Shown piece by piece: positions 15,687 through 46,463 of a stretch of DNA of 47,640 nt (position 1 is its first letter; the number at the start of each line of letters is the position of its first letter). The translations under genes were made by a program, and so were the position numbers. The DNA is from Parabacteroides faecalis. Its GTDB lineage: Bacteria > Bacteroidota > Bacteroidia > Bacteroidales > Tannerellaceae. The notes below the pieces were generated by a model, which saw only the letters and a list, made by a program, of their open reading frames with translations, was not told where the DNA came from and made no database searches. The stretch spans positions 1 through 47,640 of the forward strand of contig NZ_JAKZMM010000034.1 of assembly GCF_022809355.1 (NCBI RefSeq). Reading direction: 5' to 3'.

Positions 15687-15768
15687 TTTTTGACAGATGT
15701 CGTAAAGCTTTTCCATATATGTGATAAAGCTTTACCACAATAGTAGTAAAGCTTTTTGACAGATGTCA
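15687..15768. repeat. 22-bp phased palindrome array A
   Basis: Three AAAGCTTT palindromes are centred at 15707.5, 15729.5 and 15751.5, exactly 22 bp apart. They are flanked by two exact copies of TTTTTGACAGATGTC (15687-15701 and 15753-15767), which are 66 bp, or three periods, apart and contain the dyad GACA-n2-TGTC. The array sits between divergent promoters of the sigma gene and namZ. The rest of the 336-bp gap 15550-15885 shows only the two -7 elements. Confidence 0.8.
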
Positions 15769-15849
15769 AACAATTACTTTGTCGTATGATTTCGGTCAAT
15801 TCTTCCCGACTATCTGTCTATAAAATAAGACTGAATAAATAAAATTATT

Positions 15850-15857
15850 TATCTTTG
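15850..15857 (+). promoter_or_regulatory. -7 element for the namZ-like gene
   Basis: TATCTTTG matches TAnnTTTG exactly, 28 bp before the ATG at 15886. No convincing TTTG -33 element. It lies 82 bp from the edge of the phased array at 15687-15768. Confidence 0.45.
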
Positions 15858-15885
15858 CCATAACAGGAATCAATCTAAAACGGAT

Positions 15886-17079
15886 ATGGAAAAGATACGA
15901 ATCGTTATATGCCTGATTATTCTTTTATGGAATACCCCTGGTTTTTGTTCAGCCCAAGGCAGTACCCAGCTTAAAGTCGGCGCTGAGCGAATCGAAGTGG
16001 TAACACGGCTCCTGAAAGATAAGCGAGTCGGACTGGTGGTTAATCAGACTTCTTGTCTGGGTGAACAGCAACAACATTTACTGGATGTCTTGCTCGAACG
16101 CGGAATCGATGTCAGATGTGTGTTCGCTCCCGAGCATGGTTTCAGAGGAACGGCTGATGCCGGAGAGAAGGTAAAGGACAGTAAAGACATCAAAACCGGT
16201 ATTCCTATCGCTTCAATTTACGGAAAGCATAAAAGTCCGACAGCTTCGCAACTGAAAGATATAGATGTCGTCGTCTTTGATATACAAGATGTAGGAACCC
16301 GCTTCTATACGTATATCAGTACGATGCATTATGTGATGGAATCATGCGCTGAAAACAAGAAACAGTTTATCGTGTTAGATCGTCCGAATCCGAATGACTT
16401 TGTGGATGGACCGATCCGGCAAGATAAATTCAAATCATTCGTCGGAGTTGATCCGATTCCTTTATTGCACGGCCTGACAGTTGGCGAATTGGCTTGGATG
16501 ATCAACGAAGAAGGTTGGTTGAAGACCGGAAAGAAATCCTGTAACCTGCATATCGTCAAGGTCGAGAACTGGAAACATGGAGATCCGTACTGGTTACCGA
16601 TCAAACCTTCGCCCAACTTACCCAACGATCAGGCGATCCGGCTTTATCCGTCACTCTGTTTCTTCGAAGCAACACCATTCAGTATCGGGCGCGGTACCTA
16701 TCATCCTTTTCAAATGATCGGTTATCCGGATGAGAAATATGGAGACTATACGTTCACACCTGTTTCACTGCCGGGCTTTGATACCAACCCGTTGCAGAAA
16801 GACAAGCTATGTTATGGAATCAACCTACAGGAATATCCTTTTGAAGGAGGTTTGACACTGCGTTTCGTCTTGGATTTTTACCAGAAGACAGGAAAGAATA
16901 CCGACTTTTTCTTCTCACGGGCCAAGTGGTTTGACCTGTTGGCAGGAACCGATAAACTCCGTCAGCAAATCATCGACGGACTTACAGAAGAAGAGATAAA
17001 GGCTTCTTGGCAGGAGGAATTGAAGGCTTATAAAGAAATGCGTAAAAAGTATTTACTTTATCCGGATTATAACGAGTAA
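15886..17079 (+). CDS. namZ: Exo-beta-N-acetylmuramidase, DUF1343 (NamZ/GH171 type)
   Basis: A 397-residue secreted protein with a signal peptide (cleavage near SAQ-GS). The DUF1343 family has been shown in Bacillus and Tannerella to release terminal N-acetylmuramic acid from peptidoglycan fragments (GH171). Family motifs are EHGFRG at 83-88, FDIQDVGTRFYTYIS from 131, DRPNP at 165-169 and the conserved SIGRGT. Length is typical. It is a single gene, divergent from the PUL sigma factor and convergent with the META-domain gene. It most likely serves murein recycling in the periplasm. It has no evident link to the PUL apart from the shared intergenic region with the phased array. Confidence 0.85.
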   Translation: MEKIRIVICLIILLWNTPGFCSAQGSTQLKVGAERIEVVTRLLKDKRVGLVVNQTSCLGEQQQHLLDVLLERGIDVRCVFAPEHGFRGTADAGEKVKDSKDIKTGIPIASIYGKHKSPTASQLKDIDVVVFDIQDVGTRFYTYISTMHYVMESCAENKKQFIVLDRPNPNDFVDGPIRQDKFKSFVGVDPIPLLHGLTVGELAWMINEEGWLKTGKKSCNLHIVKVENWKHGDPYWLPIKPSPNLPNDQAIRLYPSLCFFEATPFSIGRGTYHPFQMIGYPDEKYGDYTFTPVSLPGFDTNPLQKDKLCYGINLQEYPFEGGLTLRFVLDFYQKTGKNTDFFFSRAKWFDLLAGTDKLRQQIIDGLTEEEIKASWQEELKAYKEMRKKYLLYPDYNE

Positions 17080-17094
17080 ACTAGGAAACGAGAA

Positions 17095-17131
17095 AACAAG
17101 TTGACGAAGAAACAAGCCTTGTCAACTTGTT
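17095..17131. terminator. Hairpin between convergent namZ and META-domain genes
   Basis: AACAAGTTGAC at 17095-17105 pairs perfectly with GTCAACTTGTT at 17121-17131 (loop 15), and an outer CGAG/CTCG pair extends it after a small internal loop. Two more GTCAACTT copies follow at 17137-17152. It can serve as a terminator for both converging genes. Confidence 0.5.
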
Positions 17132-17155
17132 CCCTCGTCAACTTGTCAACTTAAT

Positions 17156-17578
17156 TTATTTCTTCAACAGAAACACAACATTACCTTCGCCATCCACCAA
17201 CTGAGCTTCATTGGCATTTGCACCGGCTTTAACACCTTTTACTGATTCAAAAGACCGCAGAATCTTTGTCTCTGTATCCATATCCGGGCAGGCCATCATC
17301 GTAGTCATTCCCTGAGCGATGGAAAGAGCCGAAGCATCTTTTTCATCCACCGTTACAGCGGTGTTGAAGATATTACATCCTGCATTACCATGCAATTTGT
17401 TTTCCTTCATGTCAAACTCCATGAAAGGTGTATTCTCTGCTGTTACCTTTTCACCTTTTACTTCTACAATATTCCACTTTCCTTCCAATTGCTGAGCCGT
17501 CATTTTGGCATTTGAACATGCAACCAATGATCCGATAAAAGCCGGAATCATCAAAGCAAACATAAAAAACTTTTTCAT
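17156..17578 (-). CDS. META-domain (HslJ-like) lipoprotein
   Basis: A 140-residue small lipoprotein: signal sequence with LVAC lipobox (Cys21), then one META domain. The motif pattern is GKWNIVEVKG, LHGNAGCN, a TTMMACP segment and a final VVFLLKK strand. HslJ-like proteins are periplasmic or surface lipoproteins of unknown biochemical role, in Escherichia linked to heat shock and novobiocin resistance. I chose the second ATG (17578), because the signal peptide MKKFFMFALM begins there; an ATG 11 codons upstream would put charged residues before it. It is single, on the same strand as hicAB but separated from it by a terminator. Confidence 0.8.
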   Translation of the reverse strand: MKKFFMFALMIPAFIGSLVACSNAKMTAQQLEGKWNIVEVKGEKVTAENTPFMEFDMKENKLHGNAGCNIFNTAVTVDEKDASALSIAQGMTTMMACPDMDTETKILRSFESVKGVKAGANANEAQLVDGEGNVVFLLKK

Positions 17579-17627
17579 ATTCTCTCTTCTATTTGTATTA
17601 TCAAATTTCATTTACCTATATAGACGG

Positions 17628-17655
17628 AAAAAGCGGGTCAGATGTTCACCCGCTT
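17628..17655 (-). terminator. Rho-independent terminator after hicAB
   Basis: AAGCGGGT (17631-17638) pairs with ACCCGCTT (17648-17655) around a 9-base loop. On the minus strand the stem runs into five T residues, 42 bases after the hicB stop. Confidence 0.65.
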
Positions 17656-17696
17656 CCTTATATTTAACTCTAATTAATATTTAATAGAGTCACATT

Positions 17697-18047
17697 TCAA
17701 GAGGTAGCACAATGATGATCCAGCTCATGGATAATCGCTTTATTAATAAAATCGTTGATGGTCGTACCTGTACTATTAGCCAAACTGGCAACTCGCGCAT
17801 GTAATTCAGAAGGCATACGGAGATTAAGACGCCCACTAAATGGTTTCCTGGGTTCTACTCCTTCAGCAATACACCCGGCAATATAATCATCTATACCTGC
17901 CTCAAAGTCACTACGCAATTCATCTAACGTTTGTCCTTCATAAAGGATTACATCTTGAGACATGCCTATCACTTTTCCAAAAAGGCAATTATCCTCTTTA
18001 CTATATTCTACAGTACCTTTATATCCTTTATATTCCAAATAATCCAT
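17697..18047 (-). CDS. hicB: HicB-family antitoxin
   Basis: A 116-residue antitoxin with two parts. The N-terminal HicB fold (residues 1-60, with TVEYSKEDNCLFGKVIGMSQD quoted in part and LDELRSDFEAGIDDYI) binds and blocks the toxin. The C-terminal ribbon-helix-helix (about 71-108, GRLNLRMPSELHARVASLA and TTINDFINKAI) should bind DNA. The ATG at 18047 starts the recognisable domain; the longer frame would need a TTG codon. It lies 5 bp after hicA, toxin first, the usual HicAB order. A 14-bp dyad upstream of hicA is its likely operator. Confidence 0.9.
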   Translation of the reverse strand: MDYLEYKGYKGTVEYSKEDNCLFGKVIGMSQDVILYEGQTLDELRSDFEAGIDDYIAGCIAEGVEPRKPFSGRLNLRMPSELHARVASLANSTGTTINDFINKAIIHELDHHCATS

Positions 18048-18052
18048 AACTG

Positions 18053-18313
18053 CTATTTTAATAATCCCCGATCTAATAAATGCTGATAAATCGCCTTCAT
18101 CATCCAATGCTTCATAATACTTCCTGGATGAGGGCGATGTATATCTATAAATTGGCCTGTTTCTTCATTCTTAAAGCGAATGCGAGAACCAGATGTTGCT
18201 CCTTTATTATGTTTCTCATACCCAAAGATACGAAGCAATGCTAAAGTTTCTTCAAATGTAAAATCTTTAGGCAACTTCTTGAATCGTTCAACCAGTTTTT
18301 CTTTTGATCCCAT
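18053..18313 (-). CDS. hicA: HicA-family mRNA interferase toxin
   Basis: An 86-residue HicA-like toxin with the double-stranded-RNA-binding type fold, expected to cleave mRNA. The commonest HicA signature is GS-H-H-x-F. Here the matching segment is SGSRIRF (41-47), and the conserved histidines are instead in HRPHPG (H59, H62). This is the pattern of a HicA subgroup common in Bacteroidetes, so I read it as functional. It starts after a TATCTTTG promoter element and forms an operon with hicB, 5 bp apart. Toxin activity is inferred from the pairing. Confidence 0.88.
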   Translation of the reverse strand: MGSKEKLVERFKKLPKDFTFEETLALLRIFGYEKHNKGATSGSRIRFKNEETGQFIDIHRPHPGSIMKHWMMKAIYQHLLDRGLLK

Positions 18314-18329
18314 CCAATTCGTATTTTCA

Positions 18330-18349
18330 CAAAGATACTAAAATTAGTA
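18330..18349 (-). promoter_or_regulatory. hicAB promoter and dyad operator
   Basis: Minus-strand TATCTTTG (18330-18337) is the -7 element, 17 bp from the hicA ATG. Overlapping its upstream end is TACTAA-AA-TTAGTA (18336-18349), a dyad with 6-bp arms and a good candidate for HicB ribbon-helix-helix autoregulation. Confidence 0.55.
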
Positions 18350-18394
18350 CCAAACACAATCATTTCCTCTTAAAATTCCTTTTAGAAAATCTGG

Positions 18395-19750
18395 TTATCG
18401 AATCAAGTTCCGTTGTTTCCATTTCTGTGTACGCCAACGAAGAGCCAGGACAACTCCGCGGGAACTTTCATCCAAAGCCAAGCCGACCCAGATACCAGCA
18501 AGGCCCAAGCCTAAGGCAATACCCATAAAATAGCCGAAAGAAACAGCAAAAACCCACATGCAGACAATTTCGATCAGGACCGGAACAACGACATCGCCTA
18601 CTGAACGAAGGCAGAAAAGGAACATCAATACCGTAGCCCGCCCGTGTTCCAGGAATACATCGATCAACAATGCGCTCATGGCTATCTTGATAATCGATTC
18701 ATTCTCGGTAAAACATCCCAATAGAAAACGACCACACAAATAAACACCCATACTGGCTACAAAGGTGATCATCAACGAACGTTTCCAAGCATACCAACTT
18801 AGGATGTATGCTGCCTGTTTCTTGCCGGCTCCCACCAGATTACCGGTACAAACGGAAGTCGCACTGGCCATGGCCAAAGAGAATATATAACCGATAATCA
18901 CAATATTCATGATATAAACCCGGGCAGTCAATACTTCATTCCCTAACATATTGATAAAATAGACCACACAAACCTGAGCTGCATCGTATGAAATCTGCTC
19001 GGCAGCCGAAGGCATTCCTACTTTCAGGACATCCCGGAGCTTATCAAAAGGAAACGGCCGGAAATAGGCCAAAGGCATCCGATGAATCAAACGCTTAAAT
19101 AAGACAAAGAAAAGAAAGAGCATGCCTAAGCCTCTGCAAACAGAGGTTGAAATGGCCGCTCCCTGTATTCCCATTTCCGGAAATCCGAAATGCCCGTAAA
19201 TCAATGAATAGTTACCTATGATATTGAAGATATTAATCAAGCATGTTACTTGCATGGCATAATTCGGCTTGTTGGCCGCACGTAACACAGCTGAAACAGT
19301 AAAGCTGATAGCCTGAAAGAAACCGAAACCACCGACAATCTGCATATAGGTTACTGCCATAGGCATCAGATTCGGACGAATATCCATCCAGACCAGCATC
19401 TGTTTTCCACCGAAAGTAAGCAGGGCACTAATAATTATACCGATAATAGCGTTGAAAAGCAAAGACACACCAACCACCTGTGTAAAACTCTTGGTGTCTT
19501 TTGCGCCAAAATATAAGGCACACATGACCGATGTTCCGACTGCCGTTACATTAAACAACAGGAAAACCATATTCAACAGCTGATTGACAACCCCGGCGGC
19601 TGCCACCGCATTATCTGAATAATGGCTCAACATCAACGTATCGACTACGCCCAACGTCAGAATCAATAAGGTTTCAAGGAAAATCGGACCGGTCAGTTTC
19701 AGCAACTTGCCTCGTAGTCCGTTCGGATAATGTAAACGTCTTATCTTCAT
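18395..19750 (-). CDS. MATE-family efflux transporter
   Basis: A 451-residue inner-membrane protein with about 12 hydrophobic segments in two similar halves, as in the MATE (MatE) family of cation-coupled drug or metabolite exporters. The N-terminal half has the typical TGPIFLETLLILTLGVVDTLM and the Ala/Gly-rich VAAAGVVNQL, and the second half repeats the pattern with GMPSAAEQ and FSLAMASATSVCTGNLVGAG. These are quoted as short parts. I chose the ATG at 19750; the longer frame starts at a TTG and would place a promoter element inside the gene. The substrate is unknown. Confidence 0.9.
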   Translation of the reverse strand: MKIRRLHYPNGLRGKLLKLTGPIFLETLLILTLGVVDTLMLSHYSDNAVAAAGVVNQLLNMVFLLFNVTAVGTSVMCALYFGAKDTKSFTQVVGVSLLFNAIIGIIISALLTFGGKQMLVWMDIRPNLMPMAVTYMQIVGGFGFFQAISFTVSAVLRAANKPNYAMQVTCLINIFNIIGNYSLIYGHFGFPEMGIQGAAISTSVCRGLGMLFLFFVLFKRLIHRMPLAYFRPFPFDKLRDVLKVGMPSAAEQISYDAAQVCVVYFINMLGNEVLTARVYIMNIVIIGYIFSLAMASATSVCTGNLVGAGKKQAAYILSWYAWKRSLMITFVASMGVYLCGRFLLGCFTENESIIKIAMSALLIDVFLEHGRATVLMFLFCLRSVGDVVVPVLIEIVCMWVFAVSFGYFMGIALGLGLAGIWVGLALDESSRGVVLALRWRTQKWKQRNLIR

Positions 19751-19778
19751 GCCCACAAACAGTTTGTATTTCGAGCTG

Positions 19779-19786
19779 CAAAGATA
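19779..19786 (-). promoter_or_regulatory. -7 element for the MATE gene
   Basis: Minus-strand TATCTTTG, 28 bp before the ATG at 19750. The rest of the gap 19751-20108 holds one strong terminator (19927-19975) and otherwise nothing I can identify. Confidence 0.45.
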
Positions 19787-19926
19787 CAAAGACGTTATCT
19801 GCCGACATTCATATCCGCTCTGATTTCCTCTTCTGGAAAATCATTAGTTGATTTCTGTCAAAAGTTTTCCCAAAAGGTTCGAATTATCCCAGTCATGAAT
19901 CTTACAGGTACTTTCCAAACAATAAT

Positions 19927-19975
19927 AAAAAAGCTGTTCCTTTTCAGAAGCTCATACGCCCTGAAAAGAAACAGC
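19927..19975 (-). terminator. Rho-independent terminator of the HTCS-GH92-peptidase unit
   Basis: GCTGTTCCTTTTCAG (19933-19947) pairs with CTGAAAAGAAACAGC (19961-19975) over 15 positions with one mismatch and a 13-base loop. On the minus strand it is followed at once by six T residues. It lies 134 bases past the peptidase stop. Confidence 0.8.
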
Positions 19976-20108
19976 CGATTGAATAACACGCAACTAATTT
20001 ATATATATAATTAACACAACTGCTTCATAGCCAGGTTTTGTAATTCTTATAATCTATATTCACATTTCCTATGTATCGTATCTACCGATCGAGCGACTCA
20101 AAGACTTC

Positions 20109-20906
20109 TTAGATCTCGTCACCCATCGCTTTCATGTATTCTTTCCAAAGATCATCAACATGCTGATCACTACCTAAAGCATATTGAATGCCACCTTCAA
20201 AAGACCAAGGTATGACTTCCAGCGTACTTCTGTTGAACTTACGAAGAAAATCCTTATCCTTATTTTCGGTCAACCACGCCAAGAAGAAACCTGTCGTACG
20301 ATAACCATCCATATAATGACCACCTTTTGGCCGATCTTCAGGAGTAAAGCAACCATTCAACAAACGAACAGCATCAGCCACACCTTCAATCATCGCCCAA
20401 AAAGTCTTGTTAGTTCCATAACTTCCAATTCCCTGCGGCTCCAATTGGAATCCATGCGTCAACTCATGATACAGAACACCACGTGTTTCGTAATCAACCT
20501 TCGCAGTATCTCCTTCACCAAAGCTTTTCTCTATCCATTTTGTACTATACTCAATTGTGATTGCTGGAGGTGCTCCGTCTTTGGCCGAAACGCCATCATA
20601 TTCTCTCAATTTATAATGGATACATTCAATGCCCGGAATACTGTCTTCGGGTGAAAAGTATAATGTAGCCAACACTTTACGAGCCTGCTCGGTAATATAT
20701 GTATCCGGATCCGGAATAATTGTCTTGTAAATCGCCGCTCCCCGTGTTTCAGGCGATAAAACCTGAAAGTCAATCTGACCGACATCATAATTATCCCAAG
20801 TCGCAGAAACGGTTTCTTTCGTCTCTTCTGTGGTATTCGACTGACAAGAGATACAACAGCAGCATGCCAGACTAAAGAAACATGATATTAAAAATCGACT
20901 TTTCAT
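20109..20906 (-). CDS. Basic secretory protein (BSP)-type metallopeptidase lipoprotein
   Basis: A 265-residue protein with a Cys-rich export signal (several Cys at residues 15-21; CISC is the likely lipobox). It matches the plant-type basic secretory protein family, which carries a zinc peptidase core: HELTH at 147-151 is the HExxH motif, and EGVAD at 174-178 supplies the downstream ligand. GGHYMDGYRTTGFFLAWL is also typical of the family and is quoted in part. It begins 39 bp after the GH92 gene and is cotranscribed with it. In Bacteroides such proteins often sit beside mannosidases, fitting a role in peeling host or fungal mannoproteins. That role is an inference. Confidence 0.8.
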   Translation of the reverse strand: MKSRFLISCFFSLACCCCISCQSNTTEETKETVSATWDNYDVGQIDFQVLSPETRGAAIYKTIIPDPDTYITEQARKVLATLYFSPEDSIPGIECIHYKLREYDGVSAKDGAPPAITIEYSTKWIEKSFGEGDTAKVDYETRGVLYHELTHGFQLEPQGIGSYGTNKTFWAMIEGVADAVRLLNGCFTPEDRPKGGHYMDGYRTTGFFLAWLTENKDKDFLRKFNRSTLEVIPWSFEGGIQYALGSDQHVDDLWKEYMKAMGDEI

Positions 20907-20945
20907 TTTCTTATATAATAGATTAAAAACACACTCACTATACCT

Positions 20946-23285
20946 TTATTCAGCTTGCGTCAATGAATACGGCTGATTGTCGCCTGTAAACAAACGCTTC
21001 TTGTTCGGCTTCGAACTCATTTCAAATTCGAGAACACCACCGTTCATAATATCCTGCTGGGTAATAAAACCTTTATCATACGGTTTTCCGTTCCACTTCA
21101 CCGACTTGACGTACCGGTTTTTATCGCTCACTTTCGGAGCCTTCACCTCAAAAGTATTACCGCTTTCCAGATTCAGTTTGATATAAGGCAGATAAGGAGC
21201 GCCCAATACATATTGGTCTGTTCCCGGACAAACCGGATAAAATCCCAATGCTGAGAAGATATACCAGGCAGACATCTGTCCGCAGTCATCATTACCGCAC
21301 AAACCGTCAATATTATTCCGATACATCTTGTTCATGATCTCACGTTGCCAGTATTGTGTTTTCCAAGGATTGGAAGTCCAAGCATAGAGGAACGGTATAT
21401 GATGACTCGGTTCGTTTCCTTGTACATAACCACCCAACAAACCTTCTTTGGTGACATCTTCCGTCTGAGCAAAGAATTCTTCCGGTAAATGCATCGTAAA
21501 CAAAGAATCCAATTTCGATATAAAAGATTTCTCGCCGCCCATATTCCGAATCAATCCATTCACATCTTGCGGAACATAGAACGAATAGTTCAACGCATTA
21601 CCTTCAATAAATCCCTCACCATGCGTACTCAGCAAATTAAAGTCCTTCTTAAAGGAACCATCCTTCAACTTCGGACGAGCATAGCCAATTGACGGATCAA
21701 ATACCTGGTTGTAATTAGCCGCCCGTTTCTTATATGTTTCAGCTACCTGCTGATCTCCGGCACGAAGTGCGGTCTGATAAATCGTCCAGTCATCATAAGC
21801 ATATTCCAATGTCAGCGAACCGGCACTTCCATTCCGTTCCAACGGAACGTATCCTTTTTCCATATATTCCTTGATTCCATCCAAATAAGGAATTGTAGAA
21901 CTATTGATCATAGCCGCCAAAGCCTCTTCTTTGTCGATTGGTAATCCTTTGGCAATCGCATCAGCCAATACGGATACGGAATGATACCCAATCATACACC
22001 AGTTTTCATTCGCCATGTGACTCCAGATAGGCAATATCTTATGTACACTTTGTTCGGCATGTTTCATCATCGACTTGGCAATATCCGTATTGACCTGTCG
22101 GTTGATGATGTTAAACAATGGATGTAATGCCCGATAAGTATCCCAAACTGAGAAAACCGTATAGTTGGTAAAGCCATCAGCTGTATGAATATTCTGATCA
22201 ATTCCACGATACTGACCGTCTACGTCTGTATAAACACACGGATTGATCATCGTGTGATACAAAGAAGTATATAACATAGCCAACTGATCATCATTGCCAT
22301 TTGCTTCGATCACAGAAAGAGCCTTGTTCCAAGTGTTCGAAGCCCGGCTGGCCAATTCATCAAACCCGGCAGATGCAGCTTCTGCCTGCAAGTTCTTCAA
22401 TGCACCGGCTGTACTTACTCCCGACAAAGCAACCTTTACTTCCAGCTGTTGAGAAGCTTTCGGATCAAATTCGAAATAAGCAACGATCTTCCGACCGCCT
22501 ATATCCGGGAAATTCTCTTTCATATTGAATTTTCCATAACCACCCCGATAATTCACCTTGGCTTTTTCTTCACAACCGTAATGAACGATAGGTTTGGAGA
22601 ACGAGATCGCAAAATAGGTATAATTCGTACGAGCCCAGCCGTTGGTAATCCGGTAACCGGTCAGTAACGTATCATTTTCTACCCGCAAACTAGCCCATAA
22701 GACTTTTCCATCATAATTATAAATACCATGAATCAAGTCCAAAATGATGCGTTGCTCTTTTGCTTGTGCAGGATAAGTATATTTATGAATGCCCACACGC
22801 TGAGTCGTAGTCAACTGGGCTTTTACACCATAATCACTTAATAAGACTTCATAATATCCAGGTTTGGATACTTCGGTATTATGTGAATAACGCGAACGAT
22901 AACCGCCATCCGGATTGGTGGCAGTTCCCGGATTCAGTTTCAAGGATCCGGTTGTAGGCATAATTAAGATATCACCTAAATCAGAATGTCCTGTTCCACT
23001 GAAATGTGTATGACTGAAACCGACAATACTGCTATCCTTATATTGATATCCGGCACAATATTCGTATGCCCGTGGCTGATACTTTCCATCTACGTTATGA
23101 GGAATCGTATCTGTATCCGGACTTAATTGAACCAATCCAAAAGGAACACAAGCGCCAGGGAAAGTATGTCCCATACCATTTGTTCCAATAATCGGATTCA
23201 CCCGTTCAATAACGGACGACTGAGCAAAAGCTACAACCGAACAAGCTGCAGCCAACAAAGAACCAATTAATTTTGAATATCTCAT
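20946..23285 (-). CDS. GH92 alpha-mannosidase
   Basis: A 779-residue secreted GH92 exo-acting alpha-mannosidase, a calcium-dependent family active on N-glycan or yeast mannan termini. Signal peptide ends at VAFA-QS. Family motifs are clear: NPIIGTNGMGHTFPGACVPFGLVQLSPD near the start, GFSHTHFSGTGHSDLGDILIMP, YEYCAGY, and the catalytic-domain GLCGNDDCGQMSAWYIFSALGFYPVCPG, all quoted as short parts. The two Asp of NDDCGQ match the general base region of characterised GH92 enzymes. I chose the ATG at 23285; the longer frame starts with TTG and adds a non-signal N-terminus. It follows the hybrid regulator by 142 bp and precedes the BSP peptidase. Confidence 0.95.
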   Translation of the reverse strand: MRYSKLIGSLLAAACSVVAFAQSSVIERVNPIIGTNGMGHTFPGACVPFGLVQLSPDTDTIPHNVDGKYQPRAYEYCAGYQYKDSSIVGFSHTHFSGTGHSDLGDILIMPTTGSLKLNPGTATNPDGGYRSRYSHNTEVSKPGYYEVLLSDYGVKAQLTTTQRVGIHKYTYPAQAKEQRIILDLIHGIYNYDGKVLWASLRVENDTLLTGYRITNGWARTNYTYFAISFSKPIVHYGCEEKAKVNYRGGYGKFNMKENFPDIGGRKIVAYFEFDPKASQQLEVKVALSGVSTAGALKNLQAEAASAGFDELASRASNTWNKALSVIEANGNDDQLAMLYTSLYHTMINPCVYTDVDGQYRGIDQNIHTADGFTNYTVFSVWDTYRALHPLFNIINRQVNTDIAKSMMKHAEQSVHKILPIWSHMANENWCMIGYHSVSVLADAIAKGLPIDKEEALAAMINSSTIPYLDGIKEYMEKGYVPLERNGSAGSLTLEYAYDDWTIYQTALRAGDQQVAETYKKRAANYNQVFDPSIGYARPKLKDGSFKKDFNLLSTHGEGFIEGNALNYSFYVPQDVNGLIRNMGGEKSFISKLDSLFTMHLPEEFFAQTEDVTKEGLLGGYVQGNEPSHHIPFLYAWTSNPWKTQYWQREIMNKMYRNNIDGLCGNDDCGQMSAWYIFSALGFYPVCPGTDQYVLGAPYLPYIKLNLESGNTFEVKAPKVSDKNRYVKSVKWNGKPYDKGFITQQDIMNGGVLEFEMSSKPNKKRLFTGDNQPYSLTQAE

Positions 23286-23427
23286 ATTACCGCTCGTTGA
23301 TTTAAGAATCATTCCAACGGCAATATTAAGCGCTTTTTCAGAGATAATAAGGGACAAAATCGATCATGATAGTATCAGAATCTACCACAGTGTCGTTTTT
23401 GACACAATTTATGCAGGCTTCGACACC

Positions 23428-29377: not shown

Positions 29378-29437
29378 AAAATACGCCGGCTTTTCATCAA
29401 AAGCTGGCGTATTTTGATAAAAAGCCGGCGTATTTTT
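29378..29437. terminator. Triple-copy bidirectional terminator between yccF and murI
   Basis: AAAATACGCCGGCTTTT (29378-29394) pairs with 29399-29415 over 17 positions with one G-T wobble and a 4-base loop. A third inverted copy at 29419-29437 also pairs perfectly with the first. A- and T-runs bound every stem, so termination can work on both strands. A smaller GGCAT/ATGCC hairpin lies at 29346-29365. The rest of 29238-29377 shows nothing else clear. Confidence 0.75.
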
Positions 29438-37216: not shown

Positions 37217-37245
37217 CAAAAACATAGTTTGTTCATATAAAGGCA

Positions 37246-37253: not shown

Positions 37254-37311
37254 GAAACATTTTTTTCTTTCCACCTATAAAACGATAATATTTATAATAT
37301 TTTAGGTTCAA

Positions 37312-38358: not shown

Positions 38359-38385
38359 GATACGATCATTTCTTGTTACTTTTGG

Positions 38386-38393
38386 CAAAGTTA
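38386..38393 (-). promoter_or_regulatory. -7 element for ribD
   Basis: Minus-strand TAACTTTG, an exact TAnnTTTG match, 27 bp before the chosen ATG. The phased array at 38483-38581 begins 90 bp upstream of it. I see no RFN (FMN) riboswitch in the short leader. Confidence 0.5.
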
Positions 38394-38482
38394 AGATTTT
38401 GTTTGGATGCTTTACATGAATCTGTCAGCTTTTTGAGGAAAAATCCATTCTACATCACAACTAAATCCGTTTCATACCGGAT

Positions 38483-38581
38483 TTTTACCGTTTCACCCGG
38501 GTGGAACGATCTCTTCACCCTTGTGGAACGATCGTTCCACCTACGTGAGACGATCGAATCGCCTAGGTGAAACGGTAAAAT
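38483..38581. repeat. 22-bp phased palindrome array B, upstream of ribD
   Basis: Four 10-bp units, CACCCGGGTG (38494), CACCCTTGTG (38516), CACCTACGTG (38538) and CGCCTAGGTG (38560), start exactly 22 bp apart. The 12-bp spacers centre on CGATC; the middle one, GAACGATCGTTC, is a perfect palindrome. The outer flanks TTTTACCGTTT and AAACGGTAAAA are reverse complements, so the whole array is a nested palindrome centred at 38531.5. Confidence 0.85.
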
Positions 38582-38603
38582 TGATTGTCATTTAACGGAT
38601 TTA

Positions 38604-38707
38604 GTTGACTTAAAATCTCTTTATAAATAAAAGGGGTTGACTTTAGTTTAACTTATTTATATACTGAGTTGACTTATATTTTTGTTATTCACTCAACAGG
38701 TTGTCTT
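38604..38707. repeat. Four GTTGACTT-like boxes at 32-bp spacing
   Basis: GTTGACTTA (38604), GTTGACTTT (38636), GTTGACTTA (38668) and GTTGTCTTT (38700) are exactly 32 bp apart, three helical turns. The sequence between them is AT-rich and unrelated. They fill the space between array B and the end of the acyltransferase gene. Possible binding sites for an unknown regulator. Confidence 0.65.
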
Positions 38708-38747
38708 TTCTTATTTTGGGCAAAAAAGCAAAACAAATCCCGCAACA

Positions 38748-39887: not shown

Positions 39888-39917
39888 GAGAAATAAGATT
39901 TATAAGTATTCAATTAA

Positions 39918-40717
39918 TTATAGCATAGTCTTGATACAAGGAATAAATGGCTCCCAAAAACGAATCCGGCTTTTATGCATAAAGCCATGACATCCCATCG
40001 GAAGCTGTTTATGATTCAGATAATGACAGACTTTCGGTTTCAAATCATAGGCGAACTGTAAAGCCTCTTCTACGGTCGGATACTTCAATTCTTTAGGGAT
40101 CAACGCCCAGAATATATCTTCGTTATAAAGTCCATCTTCTGGTTTTGACAAGAAATAGGCGATTTCAGAAGCATACGACCGACATGCCACCTTGAAAGTT
40201 TCTACTTTACGCAAACATAATCCACCATTACCAATCTTTCCATACATCTGCGAACGGATAATCCGTTTGGATGCAAACAAGTATTTCTTCAGTTGCAGAA
40301 ACTGTTTGAAAGGAAAGTAATTATAACGAGGTCTTGTAGGCCAAGGAGCCGCCACCAAATCGTAGCCAGTCTCACACCAACGCAATACCTCATCACGGAA
40401 AATCCAAGCATCCAGATGACAAATAAGGATATAAGTCGTATCGCCAAACAAATCATAAAAGGATTCAGACATCATCATCCGGTTATATCCTGCAATTCCA
40501 TTTTTGTACCGAGCCATTCAGAGGACACATTCATAATCTCGGCTTGTGGATAAAGAACCGTTAAGTCATGAAGATCCACATCTTCCGGCTTCAACCAAAC
40601 GATAGGATAAGCAGCTAATACCTGCATCGTATTGGCTAACGACGCCCGTTCCCAATCTTTCAGTTCAGCCCGATAAATCGGTATCACAACTTTTACCTGA
40701 CATATATCCTTCTGCAT
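39918..40717 (-). pseudogene. DUF5672 glycosyltransferase-like gene, split by a frameshift
   Basis: Two overlapping frames make one protein of the DUF5672 family, found in capsule or LPS glycan loci: 40717-40475 encodes the N-terminus (VKVVIPIYRAEL) and 40517-39918 the rest (GIAGYNRMMMSESFYDLF, ILICHLDAWIFRDEVLRWCETGYDLVAAPW, GNGGLCLRKV, quoted in parts). The frames join at an A5 tract (T at 40501-40505 on the plus strand). Adding one A gives the continuous reading EWLGTKNGIAGYNR, as expected for the family. So either a real one-base deletion, a slipped tract, or a sequencing error. If real, the N-terminal product stops at 81 residues and the gene is dead. Confidence 0.8.
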
Positions 40718-40810
40718 ATCTAAATAGAATGAAAATTCACTACTCCAATAACAAAAAAAGCGACCCTTTTACAGAATAGCCTACATACTATATAAGAATA
40801 TTAAAGAAAG

Positions 40811-40884
40811 TGACTCGGGTGGGATTCAAACCCACGACCTTCAGAACCGGAATCTGACGCTCTATTCAGCTAAGCTACCGAGCC
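40811..40884 (-). tRNA. tRNA-Arg (anticodon CCG)
   Basis: A 74-nt cloverleaf on the minus strand. The acceptor stem GGCTCGG/CCGAGTC has one G-T pair. The anticodon stem TCAGA/TCTGA holds the loop TTCCGGT, anticodon CCG, which reads arginine CGG. The T stem GTGGG/CCCAC has loop TTTGAAT, and the discriminator is A. CCA is not encoded. Within the gap 40718-41086 I see only this tRNA and the asnA promoter. Confidence 0.95.
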
Positions 40885-41013
40885 AAAGACTGCGCAAAAG
40901 TATAAAGAATAAATGGAGAAAACAAATTATCCGAAGATATTTTTATAAAATTGATATTTTGAAAGATCATAAACAGAATATACTATCATTTTGCAATAAA
41001 ATATGCGAATACT

Positions 41014-41044
41014 ATTGATAATTTCACATTAATCATTACCTTTG
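41014..41044 (+). promoter_or_regulatory. Promoter of asnA
   Basis: ATTG (41014-41017, one mismatch to TTTG) and TACCTTTG (41037-41044) are 19 bp apart, close to the Bacteroidetes -33/-7 pattern. The start codon is 43 bp further. Confidence 0.6.
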
Positions 41045-41086
41045 CTGCACATCATAAAAATTACAGATACTTAAAACGTATAAAAT

Positions 41087-42124
41087 ATGAGTTATTTAAT
41101 CAAACCGGCAAAATATAAAGCAATCTTAAATTTGCCTCAAACAGAAATGGGGATTAAGGTAATTAAGGAGTTTTTCCAACAAAACCTTTCCTCAGAACTG
41201 CGCCTGCGTCGTGTGACTGCGCCGTTGTTCGTTCTGAAAGGCATGGGTATTAATGATGACTTGAATGGAGTTGAACGGGCTGTTACTTTTCCCATCAAAG
41301 ATTTGGGCGACGCGAAAGCTGAAATCGTTCATTCACTGGCAAAGTGGAAAAGACTGACCTTGGCAGATTATCACATCGAAGAAGGATATGGTATTTATAC
41401 AGATATGAATGCCATCCGTTCTGACGAAGAACTGGGTAACCTGCATTCTTTGTATGTCGATCAATGGGATTGGGAACGGGTTATGAAGCCAGAAGAGCGT
41501 AACATCGACTTCCTGAAAGAAATTGTTGAACGGATCTATGCGGCTATGGTTCGTACTGAATACCTCGTTTACGAGATGTTTACGGATATAAAACCTGTTC
41601 TTCCGCAGAAAATTCATTTCATCTATGCCGAGGATCTTTTACAAAAATATCCTACCTTTACGCCTAAAGAACGCGAAGATGCTATTACGAAAGAATATGG
41701 AGCGGTCTTTATCATCGGTATCGGTTCCAAATTAAGTAATGGCGAAAAGCACGACGGACGTGCTCCTGACTACGATGACTGGTCGACCGTATCTGCGGAT
41801 GGACATGTCGGACTAAACGGTGATTTGCTGGTATGGGACGAGGTGTTAAACCGCGCGCTTGAACTTTCATCAATGGGTATTCGCGTCAATAAAGAAGCAT
41901 TGCTCCGACAATTGGCATTGACAGGTACAGAAGACCGGAAGAATTTGTTCTTCCATCAGCGTCTGCTTAACGGAGAATTACCACAGAGCATCGGTGGTGG
42001 TATCGGACAAAGCCGCCTTTGTATGTTCTATCTCCGCAAAGCTCACATCGGAGAAATCCAGGCAAGTATCTGGCCGGAAGACATGCGTCGGGAAGCTCGC
42101 GAGGCAGGTATCAACTTAATTTAA
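41087..42124 (+). CDS. asnA: Aspartate-ammonia ligase (AsnA)
   Basis: A 345-residue cytoplasmic asparagine synthetase of the ammonia-dependent AsnA type, related to class II aminoacyl-tRNA synthetases. Family motifs are present across the length: [63 protein letters not shown], and the C-terminal [23 protein letters not shown], quoted in parts. Length is typical. It has its own promoter and lies 59 bp before ung, with a perfect 13-bp hairpin in the gap. Confidence 0.97.
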
Positions 42125-42135
42125 TAGAAGTCAGT

Positions 42136-42173
42136 GTTGGAAGCCAGGTCGTTTCCGGCTCCTGGCTTCCAAC
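42136..42173 (+). repeat. Perfect 13-bp hairpin between asnA and ung
   Basis: GTTGGAAGCCAGG (42136-42148) pairs exactly with CCTGGCTTCCAAC (42161-42173) across a 12-base loop. There is no T-tract after it; the ung start codon follows 10 bases later. It may be a processing or stabilising stem, or a weak attenuator. Confidence 0.7.
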
Positions 42174-42183
42174 AACGACAAAT

Positions 42184-42846
42184 ATGGATGTAAAGATTGA
42201 ACAAAGCTGGAAAGAACAACTGGCTGACGAATTCGAGAAGCCTTACTTCAAAACATTGACGGATTTCGTCCGCCAAGAGTATAAAACTACCCAAGTCTAT
42301 CCACCCGGACCCTATATTTTCAATGCCTTTCAACATTGTCCGTTCGACCGTGTGAAAGTGGTTATCCTAGGACAAGACCCATATCATGAGCCAGGACAAG
42401 CCCACGGACTTTGCTTTTCTGTCCAAGACGGTGTGCCTTATCCGCCTTCTCTCGTGAATATCTTCAAGGAAATTGAGAGTGATTTAGGCAAACCCATACC
42501 GGCCAGCGGTAATTTGCTCCGATGGGCTGATCAGGGCGTGCTGTTGCTTAATGCCACACTTACCGTCAGAGCACATCAGGCCGGATCACATCAGAACAAA
42601 GGATGGGAAACTTTTACCGACGCGGTTATCCATAAGCTGGCAGAATCTCGCCATCATTTGGTTTATATCTTGTGGGGATCGTATGCACAAAAGAAAGGAG
42701 CTTTCATTGACAGCAGCCGTAATCTGGTCTTAAAATCGGCACATCCGTCACCTCTTTCTGCCTATCGGGGATTCTTCGGAAACAAGCATTTCAGTAAAGC
42801 CAACGATTATCTGATTGCAACAGGACAAGAACCGATAGACTGGTAA
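42184..42846 (+). CDS. ung: Uracil-DNA glycosylase
   Basis: A 220-residue family 1 uracil-DNA glycosylase that removes uracil from DNA. Catalytic motif GQDPYH at 63-68 (Asp65), the uracil-binding LLLN (Asn123), and [13 protein letters not shown] at 187-199 (His187, Leu191 loop). The start at 42184 gives a protein of standard length ([13 protein letters not shown]). An upstream in-frame extension overlaps the asnA coding region and the hairpin, so it is not used. It is codirectional with asnA and converges with lptD. Confidence 0.97.
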
Positions 42847-42887
42847 ACTGATTATTTCACCAATCATACTTTCAGTGAAGGTTAGCC

Positions 42888-45626
42888 TTAATACCACTGC
42901 TGACCTTCACGATAACTGCTGCTCTGATTGTACTTCAAGTCTTTCAGCAACGATGAGCTGACGGCAACAGAAAAGGTATATGACTTGTACGGACCTATCG
43001 GAATAAAGCTGGCTGTCATCTGGAAACAGTGCATGTTTCGGGTAATATTACAAGTCATATAAGATACCTTATGCGTATCAAAATCGTAGGTTGCATTGAA
43101 GTTAAAGCTCCAGTTCTTGGTAGGCTGGATATTACCATTGAAACTCAAAGCATGGGTTAAGGCATACTTATACTCCATCTTTTTAGGATCGAATTCGTTA
43201 CTGTATCCCAAACTCATACTATAATTGAACGACAAACTCCAAGGTACTTTGGCCATATAATAACCATCAGCGTCATATTCTCCATCTTCTTTCTTCTTGC
43301 CCAATAGGCGCGAACTTTTTTTCTCTCCGTCTTCCGGACCATTCATATCCGCATTGTCTGCATTCGATTCAGCACCGGCGGCATCTCCTTCGCCCTTTTT
43401 CTTCGAATCGTCACCACCTCCAAACCATTTCTTGAAGGTATCATTATTAAAGGTATAAGAGAAGCTGGTTCCGGTCTGCTTCAATCGTCCGATTCCCTTA
43501 CCGGCTTGCCAACGTGGAATATCTACTTTGTATGCACGACCGGTTTGTTCATTATATTTATAGGTATAAGTATCGAATGTTCCGTTCAGGTTCAAAGTAT
43601 AGTTTTTCGAAAGCTTCAGACGCAGACCAACCGACAAATCACTCCATTTGAAAGAATCGGCTACCATGTTATAGCTCATTCCCAACGATAATTTATCAAT
43701 CAGACTGATCTTCTTGAAACCGGTCGAATCCTTATCCGAACGGACTTTCATTTCCAAGTTGTTATTGATTGAGAAGTTGACCGACCCAGATTTTCCCGAC
43801 GATGGCGGAGAGAAGATCTGATTAGCAAACGGAGAATATTGTACATGCACGTCTTCTCCCTGAGCGTTGGTATATACATAGTCCTGCCAGAATCCAAATT
43901 TAGAATCACCAAAGTCTGGGCGGGCACTCAAACTGATGGAAGGTTCGAAACGGTGACGTATCATTTCGATCTTCTTACCTCCGAAGAAAGGAAGCGGCTT
44001 GAAGAAACCATACAACGTAGTAGATGCCGAAATCGAAGCGTCATATTCGTAGGTACGATAAAAACCGTACGTCGTATCTACCGGGGCCATGGCCTTTTTC
44101 TGCATATCATACGCCTGTTCCACCTTGTGTGTGTACCAGTTCTCACTATAATTGAACGAAGGCGAGATATTCAAATACTTGAAAAGCGTAAACGTTGCAC
44201 TGACCGGAATCTTGTGTTGCATGGCATTATTCCAGTCTCTGATCAAGTTCGACTTAAACAAAAGATTCTCTTTCGTATTGATACTGTTACGCAAATATCC
44301 GGTATATGACATAGAAATCTTCTCATACCAACGTTCTTTACCCACAGCATGTTTCCGCTTGAAAGGATAAATACGGCTTAAAGTGAAAGTCACATCCGGC
44401 AGAGTCACCGAGATAGAAGAGTCACGCGAGGTCTGGTTGATAGACATCGTAGCCGAAATAGATAAAGGATTATTGGGGAAACGCTGGGTGATGTTCACAC
44501 TTGAGCTCTTGGTATTGCTCGTCGCATTCGGATTATACAATCCCATCATCTGGTTGCGGTCGTAGCTACTGGTCGAGAAATTGACACTCGCCGAGAAGGA
44601 TCGGTAAGGATTCGCCTTGGCATCCTGCGAATGCGTCCAGGTAATTTTGAAGTCTTTCGACTTGCTATAATCCGGCAAGCCCTTATCGCCATATTTGGAA
44701 ACCAGATAAGAAGCCAAGAAACTACCTGAATACTTATACCGCTTCCGATAATTAGACTTGGCAGACAATCCCCAGGAACCTTTCGTATAAATCTCACCCG
44801 TCAGGGCCAAATCCATATAATCGCTTAAAGCAAAATAGTATCCACCGTCCCGCAAATAGAAACCACGGGCCGATTCATCTCCGAAAGTCGGCATCAAAAT
44901 TCCTGAAGAATAGGTATCCGAGAAAGGGAAAAAGCAAAAAGGAAGTCCCAACGGATAGATCGGAACATCCTCAAACACCAAATAAACCGGACCGGTTACA
45001 ATATTCTTTTTCGGACGAACCTTAGCCTTCGTCATCTGGATATAGAAGTGCGGATGCTCATGTTCATCACAAGTTGTATATTTTCCGCCCACCATATTCA
45101 AGGCATCCGTTTCGGTTTTCTTGGTCTTTCCGGCTGTTACGTAGCCTTCACCCTGCTGGGTAATAACGTCTGTGATATAACCTTTCTTCGACTTGAAGTT
45201 ATAACGCATCGTCTTCGATTCATACTGGTCACTCCCATCGATAAACAAAGGATAACCAAACTCATCCCCTACCGAGTCAAGTCCGAACTTGGCATATACC
45301 AAGCTACTGTCCATGTTCATCTCGATATTTTCGGCCTGCAACTGAATCTGTTGGTACTTTACATCACCTTCACCAAACAGATAAGCCATATTGCCGGCCG
45401 TCATCACAATCGAATCTTTCGCTTTATAATCGACTGGTGCCTCCAGGCCTGCCTTTTTCGTCGAATCGGCCGGAGCAATAGAATCCTGTGCTACCGAATC
45501 AACCCGCAAGGTCGTATCGGCAACTGCCTGATCTGACGTATAAGAAGGAGAAGTCTTTCGTTGGGCAAACAAGCCCCAGCTTCCTAAGATATAGACAAAT
45601 AGGGTTAATAGAACTCTATATTTCAT
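42888..45626 (-). CDS. lptD: LPS-assembly protein LptD (Bacteroidetes type)
   Basis: A 912-residue outer-membrane barrel that inserts lipopolysaccharide into the outer leaflet. Signal peptide ends near LFA-QR. An OstA/LptA-like N-terminal domain (about 65-210; repeats such as KDSIVMTAGNMAYLFGEGDVKY and MRYNFKSKKGYITDV) is followed by the LptD core motif region PLGLPFCFFPFSDTYSSGILMPTFG, then the barrel (parts quoted). A hydrophilic insertion rich in Gly, Asp and Lys lies around residues 745-800 (FGGGDDSKKKGEGDAAGAE) and should be an exposed loop. A TACCTTTG -7 element precedes it, so it is probably transcribed apart from the HD-domain gene upstream. Confidence 0.92.
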   Translation of the reverse strand: MKYRVLLTLFVYILGSWGLFAQRKTSPSYTSDQAVADTTLRVDSVAQDSIAPADSTKKAGLEAPVDYKAKDSIVMTAGNMAYLFGEGDVKYQQIQLQAENIEMNMDSSLVYAKFGLDSVGDEFGYPLFIDGSDQYESKTMRYNFKSKKGYITDVITQQGEGYVTAGKTKKTETDALNMVGGKYTTCDEHEHPHFYIQMTKAKVRPKKNIVTGPVYLVFEDVPIYPLGLPFCFFPFSDTYSSGILMPTFGDESARGFYLRDGGYYFALSDYMDLALTGEIYTKGSWGLSAKSNYRKRYKYSGSFLASYLVSKYGDKGLPDYSKSKDFKITWTHSQDAKANPYRSFSASVNFSTSSYDRNQMMGLYNPNATSNTKSSSVNITQRFPNNPLSISATMSINQTSRDSSISVTLPDVTFTLSRIYPFKRKHAVGKERWYEKISMSYTGYLRNSINTKENLLFKSNLIRDWNNAMQHKIPVSATFTLFKYLNISPSFNYSENWYTHKVEQAYDMQKKAMAPVDTTYGFYRTYEYDASISASTTLYGFFKPLPFFGGKKIEMIRHRFEPSISLSARPDFGDSKFGFWQDYVYTNAQGEDVHVQYSPFANQIFSPPSSGKSGSVNFSINNNLEMKVRSDKDSTGFKKISLIDKLSLGMSYNMVADSFKWSDLSVGLRLKLSKNYTLNLNGTFDTYTYKYNEQTGRAYKVDIPRWQAGKGIGRLKQTGTSFSYTFNNDTFKKWFGGGDDSKKKGEGDAAGAESNADNADMNGPEDGEKKSSRLLGKKKEDGEYDADGYYMAKVPWSLSFNYSMSLGYSNEFDPKKMEYKYALTHALSFNGNIQPTKNWSFNFNATYDFDTHKVSYMTCNITRNMHCFQMTASFIPIGPYKSYTFSVAVSSSLLKDLKYNQSSSYREGQQWY

Positions 45627-45661
45627 TCACGTTAAAATTCACCGTAATCAATTACAGGTGG

Positions 45662-45669
45662 CAAAGGTA
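45662..45669 (-). promoter_or_regulatory. -7 element for lptD
   Basis: Minus-strand TACCTTTG matches TAnnTTTG, 35 bp before the ATG at 45626, in the 68-bp gap after the HD-domain gene. No clear -33 element. Confidence 0.45.
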
Positions 45670-45694
45670 TAATAAAATACGGAGCGAAGCCCAA

Positions 45695-46237
45695 TTATTC
45701 CCCTAAAAAGAGTTTACACCATGTGTCAAATTGTGAAACAGTCTCTTCCCCATACTTGGAAAGACTCTTATGAATCTTCTCGGGCGATTTCTCTTTATCC
45801 AATTTCGTCTTACTGAAAAACTTGTCGGCAAAGCAAATAATCTGTTCTTCCCACGAAACCGGACGCATATCCCGATGCGGAACCGGCAAGTTCTGTTCTT
45901 CGATCATTTTCAGGGAAAGTCCGGTCCCGGTATGCCGTTCGCACACCAACGCATGCCTTGGATAGCCTTCCGCCCTCATTAAATCTGCCCCCAAATATCC
46001 ATGACAAATATACGGAGCCTCGCCATGACAGTCGATACCATCGGCGTCACATTTAAAGATTCCTATATCATGCAACATAGCAGCCTCTTCAATGAAAGTC
46101 AAATCCAAATTCAATTCCGGATGACGGCGGGCAATTTCCAATGCCTTGTCGGCCACACTCCTACTATGTACCGTTAATATATGGTATGCTTCCGAGCTCT
46201 CCGGATAATATTTCTTGATAATGTCTAACGGATTCAT
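45695..46237 (-). CDS. HD-domain (HDIG) metal-dependent phosphohydrolase
   Basis: A 180-residue soluble protein of the HD superfamily. The metal site is seen in order as VHSRSVADKAL, the HDIG motif in AAMLHDIGIF, ICHGYLGADLMR, and CERHTGTG. The pattern is that of small uncharacterised HDIG nucleotide phosphohydrolases, often annotated simply as HDIG domain-containing or HD phosphohydrolase. The substrate is not predictable. I chose the ATG at 46237; the longer frame starts with TTG. It lies upstream of lptD on the same strand and has its own -7 element (TATCTTTG at 46274-46281). Confidence 0.85.
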   Translation of the reverse strand: MNPLDIIKKYYPESSEAYHILTVHSRSVADKALEIARRHPELNLDLTFIEEAAMLHDIGIFKCDADGIDCHGEAPYICHGYLGADLMRAEGYPRHALVCERHTGTGLSLKMIEEQNLPVPHRDMRPVSWEEQIICFADKFFSKTKLDKEKSPEKIHKSLSKYGEETVSQFDTWCKLFLGE

Positions 46238-46273
46238 AAGCAACAATTATTCCATTTCTTTCTTAAAATACCA

Positions 46274-46281
46274 CAAAGATA
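46274..46281 (-). promoter_or_regulatory. -7 element for the HD-domain gene
   Basis: Minus-strand TATCTTTG, an exact TAnnTTTG match, 36 bp before the ATG. The phased array at 46366-46463 begins 85 bp upstream. Confidence 0.45.
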
Positions 46282-46365
46282 TGCATTCATCTGCATATAA
46301 AGACACGCCACATTATCTATTTTCTTACCAAATATTCATATAAACCCTTTTTCCACTAATTAATT

Positions 46366-46463
46366 CACATTTGTGAATTAATTAATTTACATAAGTGATG
46401 CAATCAATTCATATTGGTGAATTAATTGCATCACTTAGGTGGATTGATTAAATAATAGCTATT
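46366..46463. repeat. 22-bp phased palindrome array C
   Basis: Five 10-bp units, CACATTTGTG (46366), TACATAAGTG (46388), CATATTGGTG (46410), CACTTAGGTG (46432) and the perfect palindrome AATAGCTATT (46454), start exactly 22 bp apart. The 12-bp spacers are AATTAATTAATT, ATGCAATCAATT, AATTAATTGCAT and GATTGATTAAAT; the second and third are near reverse complements. The array lies between the divergent HD-domain and sigma factor genes. Confidence 0.85.

Follow-up and report, generated by a model that had tools for sequence, protein, structure and literature searches.

Three intergenic gaps in a single stretch of Parabacteroides faecalis DNA each hold a short tandem array of the same period, which raises the question of what keeps one geometry in place while part of the sequence differs from array to array. 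The stretch, hereafter the window, comprises 47,640 nucleotides (positions 1 to 47,640 of contig NZ_JAKZMM010000034.1, assembly GCF_022809355.1). A preliminary description made from its letters alone had proposed a 22-bp geometry at three places, and this was borne out by two methods. Tandem Repeats Finder (TRF) returned period 22 at each of the three arrays, and a sequence-blind 22-bp palindrome scan, which scores nine pairs in each of four units at period 22 (maximum 36), placed arrays 1, 2, and 3, in that order, at the top of the 47.6-kb window. Their scores were 27, 25, and 25, respectively, whereas the best score in each of 20 control windows generated by a first-order Markov model was between 20 and 24. 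The explanation that we strongly favor, from sequence comparison, is that the arrays are phased four-unit sites of self-addressed HU-HIG proteins that carry a C-terminal winged helix-turn-helix (HU-HIG-wHTH).

The arrays follow one layout, in which four 10-bp blocks are separated by three 12-bp spacers and bounded by a half-spacer at both ends. Array 1 (family 1; 15686 to 15773) has four 22-bp units in an 88-bp core. Its first block, GACAGATGTC, occupies 15692 to 15701, and the others lie at 15714 to 15723, 15736 to 15745, and 15758 to 15767. The 10-bp unit is therefore GACAGATGTC/CATATATGTG-like, and AAAGCTTT, initially taken for the unit, is the spacer core at the centre of the 12-bp spacer. 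Array 2 (family 2; 38488 to 38575) consists of four 22-bp units CACNNNNGTG, the last being CGCCTAGGTG, with spacer GAACGATCGTTC; its first block, CACCCGGGTG, is at 38494 to 38503, followed by 38516 to 38525, 38538 to 38547, and 38560 to 38569. Array 3 (family 3; 46360 to 46447) has four 22-bp units YAYNNNNGTG and a spacer of about AATTAATTAATT, with the first block, CACATTTGTG, at 46366 to 46375 and the others at 46388 to 46397, 46410 to 46419, and 46432 to 46441. The sequences had been called unrelated, which is only partly right because the 10-bp block of all three is a common degenerate dyad, SAC-N4-GTS, whereas the 12-bp spacer is array specific. Across families 1 to 3, conservation is highest in the block cores and in parts of the spacer and lower at the junctions and in the N4 centre.

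Genes adjoining arrays in other genera point to a candidate reader. At the 74 loci retained from 80 (six were left out), the most recurrent neighbor encoded an HU-HIG domain (PF18291; seven loci), and the next family was seen at four. The P. faecalis genome contains 20 PF18291 matches, eight of them proteins of at least 194 amino acids, and all eight of these long genes have an array upstream. The gene at C49:25910 is preceded by a family 1 array, that at C25:9793 by a family 3 array, and that at C5:87185 by a two-unit array matching family 2; the remaining five have arrays of their own. Because the geometry score alone left long and short HU-HIG genes incompletely separated, a period test was applied to all 20. 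Seven of the eight long genes were significant, with period 22 in five and 21 in two (z 6.0 to 14.2); the two-unit array at C5 gave z 3.3 and was assigned because it matches family 2. At periods 21 and 22, all twelve shorter genes stayed below z 4.

The same association was found beyond P. faecalis. A profile of the long HU-HIG proteins matched 35 of 38 same-genus genomes, with at least 118 full-length matches outside P. faecalis. Of these, 80 genes from 29 genomes were retrieved, for the most part as they came in the list and thereafter so as to cover different genomes. At tested periods of 18 to 26, 75 of these 80 had a significant upstream period (22 in 51, 21 in 20, and 23 in 4), and the periodic stretch ended a median of 68 bp (quartiles 51 to 95) before the matched start of the regulator. 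As a control, 39 of 436 ordinary P. faecalis genes (at least 200 amino acids; sampled) passed at period 21 to 23, a number that includes neighbors of real dispersed arrays, and 10 passed at other periods.

Array and protein also change together. A maximum-likelihood tree was built for 85 proteins and rooted at the midpoint, and array period maps onto its deepest split (100/100 support). One side carries period 21 in 20 cases and 23 in 1, and the other carries period 22 in 56, 23 in 3, and 21 in 2, with three having no assigned period. The period label changes five times on the tree compared with 23.3 times after shuffling, and none of 200 shuffles was as low. Within the 51 period-22 arrays, Mantel tests of array similarity against protein identity gave rho 0.31 for the HU part and 0.36 for the winged helix (0 of 500 permutations as extreme in either case); for distant pairs alone, the values were 0.22 and 0.28. 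A specific example is provided by G008, the only other genome among the 38 with family 1 matches (two, both weak). It encodes the closest tree relative of the family 1 regulator, L301, which is preceded by an array with GACCTAGGTC blocks and AAACGTTT spacers. Similarity to that array is 82 to 88% for five dispersed copies in G008 and mostly 71 to 75% for P. faecalis copies; dispersed copies therefore follow the regulator of their own species. Judged from these comparisons, the array sites co-diverge with the HU-HIG protein.

The cognate proteins belong to a family with a DNA-binding fold. All eight long P. faecalis proteins score above the Pfam gathering cut-off for HU-HIG (26.2 bits), and four scanned cognate proteins also match NCBIfam TIGR01201 (HU_rel) by score. 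The winged helix falls below the Pfam cut-off in the P. faecalis proteins. An AlphaFold2 model of the L181 protein, built with six relatives, had a mean predicted local distance difference test score (pLDDT) of 83.6 and a predicted template modeling score (pTM) of 0.47, with an HU fold at approximately residues 20 to 117 and a winged helix at approximately 135 to 195. Foldseek matched this model best to 4fmr, a Bacteroides vulgatus protein, and then to HU/IHF; the sequence profile likewise places the cognate proteins with the HU/IHF-type fold. Burroughs and colleagues reportedly named the HU-HIG family and its domain fusions in 2017. No report of arrays before HU-HIG genes, or scattered, was found in the open literature searched, outside which most subscription papers lie. 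DNA bending is known for the HU/IHF fold. IHF binds single sites, and HU has little sequence preference and is usually taught as nearly sequence-blind. The cognate proteins have the same fold but seem to be distinguished by many paralogues with private, phased multi-site arrays, a property predicted from sequence.

Two observations concern HU-HIG proteins of other architecture. The HU protein encoded at C36:35588 carries an Ig-like domain (DUF4469) instead of a winged helix, and its gene, too, has a 22-bp array upstream. Four short HU-HIG genes (C9:48327, C44:6457, C3:109721, and C12:3336) have period-20 upstream repeats with z 4.9 to 7.4, and 10-bp units such as TGATCCACAC were recognized by eye in three of them. 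These repeats are perhaps a one-turn version for HU-HIG proteins lacking a winged helix.

Array copies are scattered through the P. faecalis genome (4.31 Mb, 104 contigs). DNA searches placed family 1 at no fewer than 40 sites, family 2 at 22, and family 3 at 16; the family 1 count is a lower bound because 40 of 64 candidates were scored and the sample described next adds two places (L425 and L429). Forty 20-kb stretches (800 kb), sampled without bias, were scanned at periods 15 to 30: 11 arrays had period 21, 21 had period 22, and every other period had 0 or 1. In shuffled sequence, two arrays appeared over all periods, neither of them at 21 or 22. An excess of 22-bp periodic palindromes, on whose absence the preliminary description would have fallen, is thus present. 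The 32 arrays in the sample extrapolate to approximately 170 in the genome; 28 of the 32 belong to six families, and the other four have no family assigned. Families 6 and 7, both of period 21, are dispersed, with five sample copies each, one being the copy before the regulator gene. Unit number is nearly constant: among 78 copies of families 1 to 3, 73 have four units and five have fewer (three units in three copies, two units in two), and no further unit was present at any of the 156 flanking 22-bp positions.

Geometry, the four-unit count, dispersal, gene-array adjacency, the match of period to clade, and co-divergence are all observed by sequence, and together they make it very likely that the arrays are binding sites of their cognate protein. 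The idea of a self-matching array family or a phased DNA-binding system with a selected two-turn spacing is supported; a binding system is favored because the arrays are linked to HU-HIG-wHTH genes, their period maps onto the protein tree, and pooled dyads lack compensatory change. In the proposed mechanism, an HU-HIG-wHTH protein (an HU/IHF-type fold plus a C-terminal winged helix) would bind its own array, with one array sequence per paralogue and, we infer, one dimer on each 21- or 22-bp unit. Since each unit spans two helical turns, the dimers would lie on one face of the helix, and HU-type bends would add up, possibly wrapping about 90 bp. The HU part may set the period and core, and the winged helix may read the family-specific sequence. 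The array copy before the gene would give feedback; autoregulation by this route is reasonably likely because that copy lies directly upstream of the paralogue's own gene. Dispersed intergenic copies of some paralogues might act as chromosome-organizing or regulatory stations. We hold an architectural role for these copies as a tentative possibility, somewhat short of even, and a plain regulon role as an equally tentative one.

Several observations weigh against this explanation. The array before the family 2 regulator at C5 holds two units only, and the Mantel test did not separate the contributions of the HU and winged-helix parts. No significant period was obtained for five of the 80 full-length genes, including two whose available upstream sequence was limited to 148 and 199 bp, and 7 of 20 shorter HU-HIG matches in other genomes, taken as a control, passed the period test; some of the latter were cut by a contig end or contained stops, and others were neither. 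An orphan array in G037 is 86% like the G008 array. The best-pairing outermost halves and flanks of the arrays, discussed below, are also predicted by a folding or end-recognition model. Lastly, dispersal is not universal across array families: in the 800-kb sample, family 4 was represented only by its pre-gene copy, and families 5 and 8 not at all.

If binding is as proposed, the arrays would provide ready matched protein-site pairs with which the reading of DNA by HU proteins could be studied. They would also represent a candidate chromosome-organizing system of dominant gut bacteria and might explain repeats such as BrickBuilt. A large, diversified HU-wHTH family seems to own private arrays of fixed four-unit, two-turn geometry, which would provide predicted binding sites for dozens of uncharacterized regulators from sequence alone. 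Known scattered-site systems (MatP/matS, ParB/parS, Noc, and SlmA) have one protein and many scattered single sites. The likeness lies in the many short, scattered sites for one protein, and the difference is that here five dispersed array families have a same-genome regulator with an HU fold. A further-reaching version envisages orthogonal, sequence-addressed chromatin particles in gut Bacteroidota, and with all of its features we regard it as speculative and rather unlikely. Each HU-wHTH paralogue would recognize only its own four-site array, introducing an in-phase bend every two turns; about 90 bp would be wrapped into a nucleosome-like coil, tens of stations would be marked along the chromosome, and the protein would regulate its own amount via the array that precedes its gene. 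Were this true, regulators and stations would evolve in concert, giving each species a private chromosome address code.

The alternative that survives best is an ordinary regulon, in which the proteins would act as conventional transcription factors, with every dispersed array serving as the operator of a neighboring gene and having no architectural role. The short distance between the periodic stretches and the regulators' own starts fits this view, as does the sigma-70 region 2 domain found in 6 of the 75 proteins whose genes start beside arrays of families 1 to 3, a plain count made without a genome-wide enrichment comparison. Gene context fits it less well. For the 47 of 78 copies that had both neighbors and no overlap with an open reading frame (ORF), with ORFs called by a simple rule, 18 gaps were divergent, 19 codirectional, and 10 convergent; the other 31 lacked two clear neighbors or overlapped a small ORF. 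The distance from array to gene start ranged from -9 to 427 bp in families 1 to 3. No shared function of neighbor genes was seen, as no protein family occurred in more than six of the 75 scanned proteins. Promoter-specific placement was rejected on these grounds, convergent gaps occurring and distances varying, and the earlier assignment of arrays to promoter-bearing gaps does not hold in general. We regard the ordinary regulon as a serious alternative that is nonetheless less probable than not to be the full account.

The mobile-element alternative would make the arrays miniature inverted-repeat transposable elements (MITEs) of the BrickBuilt type, moved in trans by a transposase for which the internal repeats serve as sites. 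BrickBuilt is the nearest described repeat that we found. According to passages of Klein et al. 2015 (PMC4596501), this Porphyromonas gingivalis MITE has 19 copies in ATCC 33277, dispersed and intergenic, with 23-nt repeats numbering 1 to 22.8, a leader, a tail, and IS5-like inverted ends. The 22-bp direct repeats of P. gingivalis mentioned in the preliminary description are a fair lead. Both are dispersed intergenic elements of Bacteroidales with tandem repeats of about two turns. They differ in that the window families mostly have four units, a family-specific spacer, and a cognate HU-HIG-wHTH gene each, whereas the available BrickBuilt passages mention no connection with any family of HU proteins. 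Table 1 of that paper does place BrickBuilt_14 beside PGN_0872, annotated as a DNA-binding protein of HU type (PF00216), an adjacency that we treat as a lead (PMC4596501). Dispersed homologous copies, species-specific families, and conserved outer ends past the array are what a MITE would be expected to display, and the mobile-element view may be partly true for how copies spread. The outer ends are also inverted in part. As an account of the arrays themselves it is improbable: a search for an excess of direct repeats over boundaries and lengths, made on 37 copies of family 1, 21 of family 2, and 14 of family 3, showed no clear sign of target-site duplication; unit number is fixed at four in 73 of 78 copies, compared with the wide range in BrickBuilt; and transposition gives no reason for arrays before regulator genes or for a period that follows the protein clade.

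Other repeated sequence accompanies the arrays. A repeat ending in CAGGGCTGACGCATTACAA or a close variant occurs beside or inside many of them, often near contig ends, at family 1 loci L017, L018, L068, L069, L071, L076, L078, L080, L081, L082, and L086, at L060 (family 2), and at L040 and L048 (family 3). It is probably an insertion-sequence end and may target arrays. A longer repeat (GTCATTTAACGGATTTAGTTGACTTAAAATC...) flanks family 2 arrays, both in the window (38590 to 38720) and at 12 of the 22 family 2 loci, so part of family 2 lies within a larger repeated element. Four family 3 copies (L033, L037, L040, and L048) have, by eye, well over 60 bp in common past the array on one side; a longer unit was therefore copied along with the array.

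Selection for folding, as in terminators, stem-loops resembling repetitive extragenic palindromes (REPs), or cruciforms, would instead make the arrays structured RNA or DNA hairpins. For every unit a 9-bp stem closed by a 4-nt loop can be drawn, and the array taken as a whole forms an imperfect palindrome. In a cross-species set of 66 of 80 loci (omitting the five non-Bacteroidota matches named below, a further five loci L164, L123, L156, L169, and L188, arrays of other than four units, and loci near ends), the outermost half-spacers paired at 4.70 of 6 positions compared with 3.2 to 3.8 for other combinations, and the outer flanks paired above permuted partners; array ends therefore carry real inverted symmetry. 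Covariation was assessed by comparing left-right half pairing within copies to that across shuffled copies, with 75 of 78 copies kept and three truncated arrays left out. A few single entries were positive, with z up to 3.0. Pooled covariation in families 1 to 3 was not: whole-array, spacer, and unit-flank dyads fell below expectation in every one of the three families (z -4.3 to -1.4), all dyad types other than loop pairs spanned z -4.3 to -1.3, loop pairs gave -1.0 to 1.0, and shifted controls gave -1.5 to 2.1. Arrays also occur in divergent, codirectional, and convergent gaps alike, and the sole Rfam match in the window at gathering score is a tRNA gene (minus strand, 40811 to 40884). Hairpins selected for folding are thus very unlikely, and symmetric half-sites read by a protein would, on balance, fit better than a conserved stem.

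Small palindromic intergenic repeats also recall REPs and bacterial interspersed mosaic elements (BIMEs), which would be mobilized by a Y1 HUH transposase (REP-associated tyrosine transposase, RAYT), and passages of one study describe atypical structures beside subclass 2.6 RAYT genes in Bacteroidetes (PMC6006769). This origin is exceedingly doubtful and was rejected because the P. faecalis genome has no match to Y1_Tnp (PF01797). Eight of the 38 same-genus genomes do match; the array-rich G004, G005, G010, G023, and G034 do not, and the array-bearing G008 and G033 have one match each.

How widely the pattern is distributed bears on the last alternative. A pattern of four CAC-N4-GTG blocks at a period of 22 bp, searched with a tolerance of three mismatches, was found in 21 of the 38 same-genus genomes (P. 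faecalis included), and the reversed control pattern was found in none of the 38. With such a difference, with sharp peaks at periods 21 and 22 alone, and with the pattern also present in the single-contig genome G004, chance or an assembly artefact, which the location of some copies at contig ends might suggest, has a negligible probability. The highest number of four-unit matches among the 38 genomes was 115, in G010 (3 Mb), where one array (L253) has non-palindromic spacers. When no more than two mismatches were allowed, the pattern occurred in 43 of 118 same-family genomes and the reversed control in 1 of 118, G070, where GTG-N4-CAC at 22 bp occurs in 20 places and is probably another core type. 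In a broad order-level draw, 3 of 198 genomes matched, again including P. faecalis; the four-block pattern therefore seems to be restricted to a few families. When one genome per species was scanned for exact matches, with a pattern that demands at least four units, at least 117 stretches were returned. Among the 80 matches listed, 75 had Bacteroidota titles, spanning Parabacteroides, other Tannerellaceae, Bacteroides, Phocaeicola, and Prevotellaceae, and 71 had four units and no more (68 of the 75 from Bacteroidota). The five non-Bacteroidota matches listed (L135, L152, L177, L179, and L189) were dropped, with a spacer self-complementarity of 0.00 to 0.33 compared with a mean of 0.50. The 12-bp spacers vary from genome to genome. 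Between G004 and G005, which have 22 and 21 arrays, 12 clear pairs were made by similarity and not by flanking genes; changes numbered 5 of 288 in the core, 22 of 192 in the N4 centre, 9 of 144 at the junctions, and 20 of 288 in the spacer core, the low core rate being partly built in because the arrays were chosen by core.

The window holds a probable fourth, weaker array at about 29378 to 29437, where TRF reports period 21 and about three units AAAAGCYGGCGTATTTTG; similar sequence was found in the P. faecalis genome at C4:60728, and a sample match lies at L414:15728. Array 1 is situated between an extracytoplasmic function (ECF) sigma factor gene (14992 to 15549, minus strand), whose product has sigma domains, and namZ (15886 to 17079, plus strand); a NamZ_N match was among the scanned neighbor proteins. 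Orthologous gaps were compared for this array. A namZ gene was found in 37 of the 38 genomes. By eye in 30 upstream stretches, the sigma-namZ pair is kept only in G026, with a short gap and no array; the comparison is weak, with no locus obtained for seven genomes and minus-strand stretches read unturned. Other array types occur near namZ at L238, L241, and L255 (G008, G012, and G013), for example as three 22-bp units in G008 and G012.

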